Origin: Mycobacterium sp.
GTDB lineage: Bacteria; Actinomycetota; Actinomycetes; Mycobacteriales; Mycobacteriaceae
Reading direction: 5' to 3'
Assembly (NCBI GenBank): GCA_020438845.1
Contig: JAGQTV010000061.1
Span: 1 to 64,000 of the forward strand
Length of the DNA: 64,000 nucleotides
The position numbers and the translations under genes were made by a program. Under the pieces are notes generated by a model. That model was not told where the DNA came from. It was given only the letters and a program-made list of their open reading frames with translations, and ran no database searches. Position 1 is the stretch's first letter, and each line of letters begins with the position of its first letter. Below, in pieces: positions 3,278 through 32,523 of the stretch.

Positions 3278-3877
3278 CTACAACCGCTCGTCGAACGGGG
3301 CCAATAAGTCGATCACGTCTACCAGGGTCGCACGAACGTGGTCGCGGTCGCCGTTGCCGACACCTGCCAGCGCTGATGCCACCGCACCGTCGACGGTGTA
3401 GAGCAGGGCCCGCATCAGCTCCACCTGGGCCCGCCGACCGGACCGGGACATGGCTTCGGCGACGGCATCGACCCGCTGGCTCAACATCCGCTGCTCAACC
3501 CCACGCAATGCAGGGTTTCGCGCACACGCGATGTAGCGCTCGTAGCGGGAAATGGTGTGCTCTCGAGTGGAATCCTCAGCGAGCAGGTCGACGAGCAGGT
3601 CGGCGGAGGCTTCCGCTCCCCGCCGGCGCCGCGGCAGTGCTTGGACTCGTTCCCGCAACTCTGCAGCCTCCACCGCACCGAGGTACTCGACGGCCTGCTC
3701 GACCAACTCCTCCAGCGAGGAGAAGTAGTAGGTGGTGGAAGCCAGCGGAAGACCGGCCCGGTCGGCGACGGCGCGGTGACGCACCGCGTCGAAACCACCC
3801 TCACACAGCAGTTCCGCGGCGGCGGTGACAAGCGCATACCGCCGTCGCTCTCCCTTCCGCGTCACCGCTGCGGTCAC
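3278..3877 (-). CDS. TetR family transcriptional regulator
   Basis: The protein has about 199 residues from the GTG at 3877 (a second GTG lies at 3865). The N-terminal helix-turn-helix runs from RRYALVTAAAELL through the AVADRAGLPLASTTYYF recognition region. The C-terminal part is a helical ligand domain. Upstream in-frame codons would run into the opposite esterase gene, so the long form is unlikely. It matches Rv0775 in size and position. It is divergent from the esterase gene with 88 bp between them and leads into the SDR gene. Confidence 0.85.
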   Translation of the reverse strand: MTAAVTRKGERRRYALVTAAAELLCEGGFDAVRHRAVADRAGLPLASTTYYFSSLEELVEQAVEYLGAVEAAELRERVQALPRRRRGAEASADLLVDLLAEDSTREHTISRYERYIACARNPALRGVEQRMLSQRVDAVAEAMSRSGRRAQVELMRALLYTVDGAVASALAGVGNGDRDHVRATLVDVIDLLAPFDERL

Positions 3878-3965
3878 CAGCGCAATGCTGCCAGTCCGTC
3901 CCGATCGCCCATCGCGCTTTTCCCGAAGAAGTGACCAGTGAGCAAAGCGTGGCAGGATTGGCCAA

Positions 3966-4778
3966 ATGCAGAGCCTGAGTCGTCGCGCGGTGTTGCGGTT
4001 GGGAGCCGGTGCCGCGGCGCTCGGAGCCGTCAGCCGAGCCTTTCCGGCGGCGGCCGAACCGACAGCTGCACCGACGATGACGACCGGCACATTCATCTCG
4101 GCCGCCCGAGGCGGCATACCGACCAACTGGGCGATCGCCCGCCCCCCGGGACAGACCCAACCGCTCCGGCCGGTGATCGCCCTGCACGGCAAGGGCAGCA
4201 ACGCCACCACGGTGATGGCGGGCGGTGTCGAGCAGGGCCTGGCGCAGGCTGTCAACGCCGGCCTGCCGCCGTTCGCCGTGGTGGCCGTCGACGGCGGCGG
4301 CAGCTACTGGCATCAGCGGGCCTCCGGCGAGGACTCCGGAGCGATGGTGCTCAACGAGCTGATCCCGATGCTGTCCGAGAGGGGCCTGGACACCTCCCGG
4401 GTGGGCTTCCTGGGATGGTCGATGGGGGGCTATGGCGCGCTGCTGCTCGGTGCGCGATTGGGTCCGGCGAGGACTGCCGCGATCTGTGCGGTCAGCCCGG
4501 CCCTGTGGCTCTCGCCGGGAGCGACCGCACCCGGGGCGTTCGACGGTGCCGCCGACTTCAACGCAAACAGCGTCTTCGGTTTGCCGGCATTGGGATCGAT
4601 CCCGATTCGGATCGATTGCGGATACAGCGACCCGTTTTACGAGGCAACTAAGGCCTTCGTCGCGCAACTGCCGCATCCGCCGGCCGGCGGATTCTCTCCC
4701 GGGGGCCACGACCCCGCCTTCTGGAGCGCGCAGTTACCCGCTGAGTTGGCGTGGATGGCGCCGTTGCTTACAGCTTGA
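3966..4778 (+). CDS. Tat-exported alpha/beta-hydrolase (esterase)
   Basis: The protein has 270 residues. The N-terminus has a twin-arginine signal (SRRAVLRLG followed by an Ala-rich stretch and AAAEP), so export by Tat is likely. The nucleophile elbow is GWSMGG near residue 158, a candidate acid lies further on, and GGHD near the C-terminus supplies the histidine. It corresponds to Rv0774c, reported as an exported esterase. The last 11 bp overlap purD, which converges. Confidence 0.8.
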
Positions 4779-30134: not shown

Positions 30135-30932
30135 ATGCGCAAGCTGACTACCGCCATGGGAGCCTCAGTGCTGGCAGTCGTCCTCGCGACGGTCGGCGTC
30201 GACACCGGTGCGGCCGTCTATGCCGAGTACCACGTAGCCCGTCACGTCCGCAGCGCCGCAGGCCTCCCGTTCGACCCCTGGGTGGCAATCCTCGGATTTC
30301 CGTTCATCCCGCAAGCCACCCGGCACCGATACCACGAATTGGAGATCAAAGCCGGTGGGGTCGACCAACCGATGGTGGGCAAGGCCAACTTGGAAGCAAC
30401 GATGCACGACATCGGCCTCACCCAGGCTTCCTGGCTGATGCGCCCCGACGCGGACATGCCGGTGGGCAAGCTGGAGAGCCGGATCATCATCGACTCCCGA
30501 CACGTCGGAGAGTTCATTGGCATCAAGGATCTTTCTGTAGAGGCGCCGCAGGCGGACACCAACGACGCCACCGGCGGCACCACGGAGTCCGGAATCTCGA
30601 GCGCTAAGGGGCTGGTGTTCACCGGTACACCGAAGAAGGCTGGTTTTGACAAGCTGGTCAGCGTGACGGTGGACTTGTCGATCGTGGGCCCCGAACAGAC
30701 CACCCTCGTCTTCACTCCGACTGGTGTGGTTACCGGTCCGAACACCGCCGACCAAGTGGTCCCCGCCGACCAACGCGCCGCGGTGCTCGGCGCTTTCGCC
30801 GCGACGCTGCCTAACCAAAAGTTGCCGTTCGGACTCCGGCCTACCAGCGAGGGGGCGCGTGGTTCGGACCTCATCATCGAAGGCATCGCCGAGGAAGTGA
30901 CCGTCCGTCTCGACGGGTTCAGGCAGAAATGA
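30135..30932 (+). CDS. lmeA: LmeA, periplasmic lipid-binding protein (DUF2993)
   Basis: The protein has 265 residues with an N-terminal signal or anchor (MRKLTTAMGASVLAVVLATVG, residues 1-21) followed by a DUF2993 domain. In M. smegmatis LmeA is needed for full-length lipomannan and binds phospholipids. Start is ATG at 30135 with no clear ribosome-binding site. A short divergent region of 70 bp separates it from the GlnR-type regulator. It overlaps the thioredoxin gene by 4 bp. It matches Rv0817c. Confidence 0.85.
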   Translation: MRKLTTAMGASVLAVVLATVGVDTGAAVYAEYHVARHVRSAAGLPFDPWVAILGFPFIPQATRHRYHELEIKAGGVDQPMVGKANLEATMHDIGLTQASWLMRPDADMPVGKLESRIIIDSRHVGEFIGIKDLSVEAPQADTNDATGGTTESGISSAKGLVFTGTPKKAGFDKLVSVTVDLSIVGPEQTTLVFTPTGVVTGPNTADQVVPADQRAAVLGAFAATLPNQKLPFGLRPTSEGARGSDLIIEGIAEEVTVRLDGFRQK

Positions 30933-31351
30933 GCCCAGCCCTGGCCACTGCGGGTGCGGCTGTTGTTTCGGCACTGAGCCTTGCTGCCGTCATCGGGATG
31001 CTTCACAATCGTCGGCACGGGGTGCTCCGCGACGCCGAGCATCCCAGCGACCTCGACACCGCCGATCTCGGTCTGTCGAGCTCGGGGCCGACCATCGTGC
31101 ATTTCACCGCCGTGTGGTGCGGTCCGTGCGCCGGGGTTCGCCGAGTGATCGACCAAGTCCGTGCCGACCTACCACAAGTGGCGCATGTGGAGATCGACAT
31201 GGATTCCAATCCGGCTGCGGCACGCAAACTCTCAGTGCTCTCGCTACCGACGACATTCGTCTTCGACGCCAACGGTCAGCAGCGGTACAGATCCTCGGGC
31301 GTACCCAAGGCAGCCGACCTGCGAGCGGCTTTGGAACCAATGTTGACCTGA
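30929..31351 (+). CDS. thiX: Membrane-anchored thioredoxin-like protein
   Basis: The protein has 140 residues. An N-terminal hydrophobic segment (residues 4-24) probably anchors it. The thioredoxin domain has the active site AVWCGPC near residue 61 and the cis-Pro in LPTTFVF. It matches Rv0816c. Start overlaps the lmeA stop by 4 bp (ATGA). It lies 28 bp before the polycysteine leader, so the next transcript is likely separate but in the same functional neighbourhood of sulfur metabolism. Confidence 0.87.
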   Translation: MSPALATAGAAVVSALSLAAVIGMLHNRRHGVLRDAEHPSDLDTADLGLSSSGPTIVHFTAVWCGPCAGVRRVIDQVRADLPQVAHVEIDMDSNPAAARKLSVLSLPTTFVFDANGQQRYRSSGVPKAADLRAALEPMLT

Positions 31352-31367
31352 ACCGGGGATTATTGGG

Positions 31368-31373
31368 TAGCAT
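31368..31373 (+). promoter_or_regulatory. -10 box of the polycysteine leader transcript
   Basis: TAGCAT (TANNNT type) ends 6 nt before the GTG at 31380. Start of transcription at that G would give a leaderless leader ORF. Confidence 0.6.
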
Positions 31374-31379
31374 GGCGAC

Positions 31380-31472
31380 GTGCCCACCCGACTCGAGCTT
31401 CGGCTCACTAAGCGCCGCGCAGTTGATCTGTGCCGCACCGCGGGTTGTTGCTGTTGTTGCTGTTGCTGCTGA
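31380..31472 (+). CDS. Polycysteine leader peptide (cysteine-responsive attenuator)
   Basis: A 30-residue ORF starts with GTG and ends in eight consecutive Cys codons before TGA (residues 23-30), with another Cys at residue 18. It has a -10 box 6 nt upstream and no ribosome-binding site. Leaderless polycysteine ORFs that tune sulfur operons by cysteine supply are known in mycobacteria upstream of the cysA2/sseC genes. Here it precedes DUF4395 and sseC, and a rhodanese gene is missing. It is too short for usual annotation. Confidence 0.85.
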   Translation: MPTRLELRLTKRRAVDLCRTAGCCCCCCCC

Positions 31473-31530
31473 GTTAGCCGCGGCTTTTTCGTAGTTCTCT
31501 TACGCCGCCGCCGCCTCGCAGCCGACGCGG

Positions 31531-31562
31531 CCTGTTTTTTCCAGCCTGCCCAGCAACAGGAG
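31531..31562 (+). promoter_or_regulatory. Possible anti-Shine-Dalgarno hairpin before DUF4395
   Basis: CCTGTT (31531-31536) can pair with AACAGG (31555-31560), which overlaps the AGGAG ribosome-binding site at 31558-31562, 8 nt before the ATG. Stalling on the cysteine codons upstream could alter this pairing. This is a structural inference only. Confidence 0.4.
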
Positions 31563-31570
31563 TTTCTTGC

Positions 31571-32044
31571 ATGTCGACCAACACCATCACTTCCGGAACG
31601 GCTCCACTCGCCGCCGCACAGGTGGATGTCCGGGGACCCCGGTTCGCCGCATGGGTAACCTCAGCCGTGCTGCTCATCGTGCTGGTTCTTTCCGGAGTCA
31701 ACGAGACCGCCGCGGCCCTTCTGCTAGGCGCCCAGGCCGGCGTTTTTCTCATCGGAGCACTGCACGGCCCACGTCGACACCTATACGGCCGGATCTTCGC
31801 CACGCTGGTAGCGCCACGACTGGGTCCAGTCAGCGAACGTGAGCCGGTGCAACCATTGCGGTTCGCCCAACTCGTGGGCCTGCTCTTCGCTCTGGTCGGG
31901 ACCGCCGGATTCGTGTTTGGCGCACCCCTGATCGGCGTCGTCGCCACCGCCTTCGCACTGACAGCCGCGTTTCTCAACGCGGCGTTCGGGATCTGTCTGG
32001 GCTGTCAGGTCTACCCGCTCATTGCCCGGCTAAAAACCTCCTGA
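31571..32044 (+). CDS. DUF4395 membrane protein
   Basis: The protein has 157 residues with four hydrophobic segments (near residues 28-46, 49-66, 93-112 and 114-135). Conserved Cys occur in GICLGCQVY near the C-terminus, as is usual for DUF4395. DUF4395 genes commonly accompany rhodanese, thioredoxin and sseC genes, which suggests a role in sulfur transfer at the membrane. The ribosome-binding site AGGAG is clear. It is the first structural gene behind the polycysteine leader. Confidence 0.8.
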   Translation: MSTNTITSGTAPLAAAQVDVRGPRFAAWVTSAVLLIVLVLSGVNETAAALLLGAQAGVFLIGALHGPRRHLYGRIFATLVAPRLGPVSEREPVQPLRFAQLVGLLFALVGTAGFVFGAPLIGVVATAFALTAAFLNAAFGICLGCQVYPLIARLKTS

Positions 32045-32071
32045 CACCACCTCGAAAAGGAAACTTCTGAC

Positions 32072-32374
32072 ATGAGCTTCGCCACCATTGACGAACTTGA
32101 CCAGTCGCCCAGCATCGACCTGACGAAGGAGACCGTCATCACCGGTCGGGTGGTCGACGGGGCCGGACAGGCCGTCAGCGGCGCCTCGGTGCGCCTGCTG
32201 GACGGCGCCGAGAGCTTCACAGCCGAACTGCTCTCGAACGCCGACGGCGACTTCCGGTTCTTCACCGTGCCGGGCACCTGGACGGTGTGGGCGGTGTCGA
32301 CGGCCGGGAGCGGCGACGTCACTCTCGCCCCGACTGCCTTCGGTCTCCATGAGGTGGACGTCAAAGTCGCCTGA
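32072..32374 (+). CDS. sseC: DUF1416 protein SseC
   Basis: The protein has 100 residues with a single beta-sandwich (transthyretin/carboxypeptidase regulatory-like) domain: VITGRVVDGAGQAVSGASVRLLD then FRFFTVPGTWTV. It matches SseC2 (Rv0814c), which normally follows the thiosulfate sulfurtransferase cysA2. That gene is not present here. Ribosome-binding site AAAGGAAA. Biochemical function is not known. Confidence 0.85.
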   Translation: MSFATIDELDQSPSIDLTKETVITGRVVDGAGQAVSGASVRLLDGAESFTAELLSNADGDFRFFTVPGTWTVWAVSTAGSGDVTLAPTAFGLHEVDVKVA

Positions 32375-32424: not shown

Positions 32425-32523
32425 GTGGTGCTGTTCTTCGAGATTCTGCTGGTCATCTCCACCGTGGTGATCACCTGGTTCGCGCTGTACGCGGTCTACC
32501 GACTGATCACCGACGAGTCGTGA
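32425..32523 (+). CDS. Small single-span membrane protein (32 residues)
   Basis: GTG at 32425 encodes a 32-residue protein whose residues 3-24 form one hydrophobic helix ([20 protein letters not shown]), followed by the tail [16 protein letters not shown] box 7 nt upstream supports a leaderless start. Its TGA overlaps the GTG of the nitrobindin-like gene (GTGA), so the two are translationally coupled. I recall similar unnamed small proteins at this place in other mycobacteria. Function unknown. Confidence 0.75.

Follow-up and report, generated by a model that had tools for sequence, protein, structure and literature searches.

A polycysteine leader is retained in a Mycobacterium genome that lacks cysA2 and encodes a cysteine-free SseC

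The window, by which we mean the whole 64,000-nt stretch of DNA analyzed here, comes from a Mycobacterium sp. genome (G000) assembled to 4.53 Mb in 118 contigs at 99.8% completeness. Along its forward strand lie, in order, an LmeA-like gene, ThiX, a short leader ORF, DUF4395, SseC/DUF1416, a 32-aa membrane-type peptide and a nitrobindin-like gene, where ThiX, SseC and nitrobindin are names that we presume to apply to the window genes. The leader ORF (31380..31472, +) begins with GTG, runs for 30 codons before a TGA stop, encodes the peptide MPTRLELRLTKRRAVDLCRTAGCCCCCCCC, and is kept in relatives; eight consecutive Cys codons close it (31446..31469, +), and a TANNNT box of the −10 type, TAGCAT, lies six bases before its GTG (31368..31373, +). 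The leader ORF, its Cys run and the box, which a preliminary description had listed, were verified in the sequence, and Pfam matches likewise verified the two genes placed downstream: DUF4395, a membrane-type protein with a CLGC motif (31571..32044, +; PF14340, E 2.2e-41), and SseC/DUF1416, which has no cysteine at all (32072..32374, +; PF07210, E 1.3e-26). The two are separated by a 27-base junction (32045..32071, +) that locus comparison identifies as the site of cysA2 in relatives. An earlier suggestion that ThiX had taken over finds no support, because this thioredoxin-like gene (30929-31351, +) precedes the start of the leader and is not on its transcript. The 32-aa peptide between sseC and the nitrobindin-like gene (32425-32523, +) is probably an overlooked small protein, since 65 of 113 loci match a rough motif for it.

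We compared the leader across 118 loci, made up of the window, L044 and other loci of the genus. A strict motif finds it in 108, a laxer look adds variant leaders at 2 more, 3 loci are interrupted by a contig end, and 5 are without any leader. All 108 strict-motif leaders have GTG at the homologous codon, and a TANNNT box stands directly before it in 107 of them, as compared with 11 of 5400 control positions; the spacing of this box fits a predicted transcript start at the leader GTG. Counting Cys runs of at least three in the six-frame translation of the window gives seven with 3 residues, two with 4 and one with 8, the last being that of the leader and the sole run longer than 4. Across 23 aligned relatives, the leader has long runs without change even at third codon positions, and invariant short hairpins precede the Cys codons, which suggests a constraint on the leader at the RNA level beyond that on the peptide. 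A second polycysteine leader occurs elsewhere in the same genome (L097; contig C16, near 78553, − strand), its peptide ending in VCSCCCCPA; we read the long ORF that follows as sulfite reductase NirA, from its own sequence and from the nirA leader described in PMC4633059.

The leader itself is not new, because it is the published polycysteine leader of cysA2, which Shell 2015 described upstream of that gene in both M. tuberculosis and M. smegmatis and, in the second species, found occupied by ribosomes (PMC4633059). The Rv0815c / Msmeg_5788 leader reported there shares with the window leader its operon position, its leaderless GTG start and its C-terminal Cys run, and the genus-wide alignment makes the two the same element; position and conservation thus bear out the earlier assignment to this mycobacterial type. 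Cysteine-dependent attenuation was shown in M. smegmatis by Canestrari et al. 2020, according to a review (PMC9031893). Unlike the Rv0815c / Msmeg_5788 locus, the window has no cysA2, and its leader stands before DUF4395 and a cysteine-free SseC.

The usual order in the genus is leader, DUF4395, cysA2, sseC: DUF4395 and cysA2 occur together in 94 of the 118 loci, cysA2 alone of the two in 20, and DUF4395 alone in 4. Among cysA2-less loci whose leader region was visible, the leader is present at 11 of 11 (the window, L050, L051, L312, L313 and L315-L318, plus L319 and L320 by eye), and the CLGC motif of DUF4395 is kept in 11 of 11 readable cysA2-less loci, one of them a broken gene. Five other loci (L122, L123, L129, L130 and L169) have cysA2 and sseC with neither DUF4395 nor a detectable leader, and DUF4395 and leader may have been lost together there. 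The window genome also encodes a second DUF4395 protein (L048 5251-5739, contig C75), 53% identical to the window copy, in which CLN replaces CLGC and a CC stands near its end.

With 27 bases only between DUF4395 and sseC, the window has no cysA2 where the preliminary description had noted it missing, and the absence extends to the whole genome. Searching G000 with the CysA2 of L044 returned a single match, 53% identical; in two control genomes, the same search found CysA2 at 82% and 86% identity plus a 51% protein. The neighbors of the 53% protein are a carboxylase, a Maf-like protein and PurK, as read from their sequences, and a SufE gene. As SseA sits beside such neighbors, we take the 53% protein to be the SseA orthologue, and it is the only homologue found. 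Genus-wide, CysA2 is detected at E<=1e-112 in 301 of 326 genomes and is missing from 25, which include incomplete assemblies; among 300 genomes of good quality, 13 are without it. The CysA2 of G587, in the same genus, is identical to that of L044. Several genomes preserve partial copies: among the 25, G038 (L135, oriented bases 3642-3989) encodes an in-frame hybrid of 116 aa in which the beginning of the first half of CysA2 runs straight into the end of the second half, G089 has a broken copy, and the junctions of G530 and G557 still carry remnants of the cysA2 end. Three trees were built, from 53, 23 and 69 chosen loci. In the 23-locus tree, the four cysA2-less loci group together with support of just 61/64, while the 69-locus tree, from which two rows were omitted for the cysteine trait, places L044 and L172, both with cysA2, among cysA2-less loci and gives five cysA2 changes over all rows. 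A single loss in the clade of the window is unsupported on both counts, and these trees indicate that cysA2 may have been lost repeatedly, or lost and then regained.

How the leader might act on the gene that follows it can be read in part from base pairing. The Cys codons at 31460-31468 are perfectly complementary, over nine bases, to 31551-31559, a length reached by 0 of 200 shuffles; this complement is part of CAGCAACAGGAG (31551..31562, +), identified by complementarity and consensus fold, which overlaps the ribosome-binding site of DUF4395 (AGGAG, 31558-31562). In the minimum-energy fold of the window leader, 31450-31462 is paired with 31551-31563, and CAGCAACAG is a stretch of this putative masking helix. 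A helix of Cys codons and binding site also appears in the consensus fold of 23 chosen leaders. The complement CARCAG occurs beside the binding site of the leader-adjacent gene in 65 of 86 loci having DUF4395 and cysA2, and at later starts in 1 of 92 for cysA2 and 0 of 92 for sseC. By the energy model, opening the AGGAG of the window takes 5.3 kcal/mol when the RNA is free and 2.4 when a ribosome covers the Cys codons. The saving from stalling exceeds 1 kcal/mol for just 6 of 10 chosen leaders, and accessibility of AGGAG under a stalled ribosome gave a mixed outcome over 22 leaders. Folding of the whole leader was no better than that of many shuffles (z -1.08, with 27 of 200 as good), and the helix shows hardly any covariation among the 23 leaders, whose columns are near-invariant (term -0.19). 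A binding site was found for 99 of the 108 leaders and none in the other 9; among the 55 of these 99 in which CARCAG abuts GAG, comparing own with swapped pairs of Cys codons and complements gave no signal of coevolution (959 of 5000 permutations at least as high as observed). On the strength of the complementarity and the computed folds, sequestration of the DUF4395 binding site by the Cys codons, relieved by a stalled ribosome, is the likely mechanism.

Two other routes of control were considered. The preliminary description had proposed that CCTGTT and AACAGG pair to mask the DUF4395 binding site, and it is conceivable that this hairpin alone does so while the Cys codons act in some other way. 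Both strings do exist in the sequence, yet their pairing appears in no minimum-energy, centroid or consensus fold, and it would stay closed under a stalled ribosome. As the main mask we rejected it, since in the computed folds the binding site is taken up by the Cys codons, and only this second pairing would open under a waiting ribosome; as the sole mask, it is very improbable. Alternatively, transcription could terminate after the leader, leaving the ribosome-binding site out of the control: AGCCGCGGCT followed by TTTTT lies just past the leader stop in the window, and the ilvB1 attenuator of M. tuberculosis is reported to combine a leader ORF with a terminator (PMC13236596). Against this, a terminator scan gave 1 match where 0.5 were expected, and that match falls within the leader ORF, away from AGCCGCGGCT, the T run is not seen after the leader in the near relatives L044, L050 and L070, and the same 2026 paper terms the cysteine loci of M. 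smegmatis translation attenuation. Termination is therefore an unlikely account of this leader, if a less remote one than the hairpin, and we continue with masking by the Cys codons.

The new observation downstream concerns the N-terminal cysteine of SseC. SseC was found in 116 of 118 genus genomes searched and, at the wider scale of a class sample, SseC/DUF1416 at E<=1e-10 in 99 of 128 genomes. Of the 114 genus loci with SseC beside CysA2, 113 encode an SseC that begins MC; the sole exception is G075, a 3.3 Mb genome in which CysA2 is present and SseC starts MFSGPKQE. Outside the genus, the N-terminal Cys motif and an adjacent CysA2 occur together in 90 of 90 loci (from 89 of the 94 outside-genus genomes, plus L045). 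By comparison, the four cysA2-less genomes of the first sample (G000, G003, G032 and G106) encode SseC without any cysteine. Once the hypothesis had been written down, 19 further cysA2-less genomes were searched, along with two that gave partial CysA2 matches; of the 19, 9 had traces of sseC and 10, most of them incomplete, had no match. The readable SseC proteins of G451, G478, G479, G530 and G557 have no N-terminal cysteine, that of G444 begins MSCVISG, with the cysteine present and the arm absent, the sseC of G434 is in pieces, and G527 and G581 are unreadable at the sseC start. Taken together, traces of sseC remain in 13 cysA2-less genomes: 9 are without the N-terminal Cys, 1 has a cysteine without the arm, 2 are unreadable and 1 is broken. 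The two genomes with a truncated or broken cysA2, G038 and G089, retain an intact MCS start in the SseC beside it. Outside the class, G156 (L204) has a CysA2-like neighbor (61%) and an SseC without the N-terminal Cys, and no CysA2 was seen at the other outside-class DUF1416 loci, L205-L219. A sign test on the tree found 4 independent pairs, 3 agreeing, 0 opposing and 1 showing no difference (p 0.25); the association between the SseC cysteine and CysA2 is strong by count yet rests on few events. The tendency for the only cysteine of SseC to disappear along with CysA2 suggests a function for this protein.

The window SseC is itself at the edge of its family. It scores about 92 bits (91.8-92.8) against PF07210, with a cut-off of 23 and a match beginning at profile position 12, and is the lowest-scoring intact member of the genus sample, the other first matches ranging from 111 to 147 bits; it lacks the N-terminal Cys common to class loci with an adjacent CysA2. 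Using 9 cysA2-less and 17 cysA2-containing chosen loci, with final ratios computed on the first 8 of the 9, we found the pN of the SseC core relative to nitrobindin to be 2.22 without CysA2 versus 0.88 with it. This faster evolution would be expected from simple decay, by which cysA2 disappeared by chance, often in small-genome lineages, and left SseC, DUF4395 and the leader behind as relics; the start of sseC would have gone with the deletion itself, and Cys2 and CysA2 would not be functionally linked. The few bases that separate cysA2 and sseC starts, the breakage of both DUF4395 and SseC in G434, and the 10 of 19 further genomes without an SseC match, even if most are incomplete, are in line with decay as well. 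Decay fits poorly with the reading frame of SseC, which stays open with a pN/pS of 0.34 across the nine cysA2-less loci, with the retained leader and CLGC motif, and with G530, where the start-codon context and the arm persist and the cysteine alone is gone (MSLGPSQG). We consider decay unlikely as the full explanation, and prefer to see in the lost cysteine the loss of a sulfur acceptor for CysA2.

Structure and analogy bear on that preference. In the model of canonical SseC, as distinct from the window protein, the one conserved cysteine, Cys2, is predicted to lie exposed on a low-confidence arm of a sandwich, and the nearest folds listed are other sandwich domains. The sulfur carrier SoxY is a small sandwich with one cysteine near its chain end. 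SseC would share this layout but has its cysteine at the N-terminus. The 50 matches listed for the SseC model include no SoxY chain, which excludes nothing, and a sequence search of solved structures with SseC gave four matches at E 0.63 to 0.65 that we take as chance. A closer parallel is offered by SseA, which is bound and activated by its neighbor SufE(Mtb) (PMC12375888): here too, a double-domain rhodanese is encoded next to a small protein that has a single key cysteine. The SseA-SufE gene pair is present in the window genome. In contrast to SufE, SseC is predicted to be a beta-sandwich of the carboxypeptidase-regulatory type, and its pairing with CysA2 is putative. The parallel also serves a different reading, in which SseC is no acceptor and its N-terminal Cys arm docks on CysA2 or forms a disulfide or metal site, for example in regulating CysA2. 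SufE also acts on SseA as an activator (PMC12375888), and docking or regulation would be expected to leave an identical comparative pattern; nothing in the present data counts decisively against it. We hold this reading to be about as doubtful as decay, and retain the acceptor role for SseC. Our literature search, which covered few subscription papers, found no functional study of SseC or DUF4395, and the mentions of DUF1416 in the texts it reached are single table rows, including one for Gordonia alkanivorans in which a DUF1416 protein is among the raised features of a table that also has a sulfur acquisition oxidoreductase (PMC11852219).

The explanation that we favor, at a probability of roughly 55%, is that the leader is the known mycobacterial cysteine attenuator, that SseC is the sulfur acceptor of CysA2, and that after the loss of cysA2 the switch governs DUF4395 and a cysteine-free SseC. 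It draws on the anatomy of the leader, its conservation, the loss of cysA2 and the joint loss of the SseC cysteine, all direct results of this analysis, together with the predicted pairing obtained here. When cysteine is ample, ribosomes would clear the Cys codons, these codons would pair with the DUF4395 binding site, and the operon would stay low; when charged Cys-tRNA is scarce, a ribosome would wait on the Cys codons, the binding site would be freed, and the operon would be translated. CysA2, the rhodanese, would have SseC as its dedicated partner. Sulfur would pass from CysA2 to the sole cysteine of SseC, a small beta-sandwich in which this residue would sit on a flexible arm at the N-terminus. 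In the lineage of the window, cysA2 would have been deleted, after which SseC would have lost its arm cysteine and come under weaker constraint while leader and DUF4395 stayed intact; a switch presumed to be still working in the window organism would then control DUF4395 and the cysteine-free SseC. A broader version is more tentative, and we would put it somewhat short of an even chance: SseC would be a new protein sulfur carrier, a carboxypeptidase-regulatory-like sandwich with a swinging Cys arm, dedicated to CysA2 throughout the class, and lineages without cysA2 would keep its cysteine-free core and DUF4395 for a second function under the cysteine switch.

What is new is the loss of cysA2 under a retained leader, together with the joint loss of the SseC cysteine. 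The latter is worth following because it makes an unstudied conserved protein a testable candidate for a sulfur carrier: natural deletions of CysA2 single out the N-terminal cysteine of SseC, whose role is directly testable and parallels the SseA-SufE pair. For the leader, the window points to a cysteine attenuator able to outlive the enzyme for which it was known.
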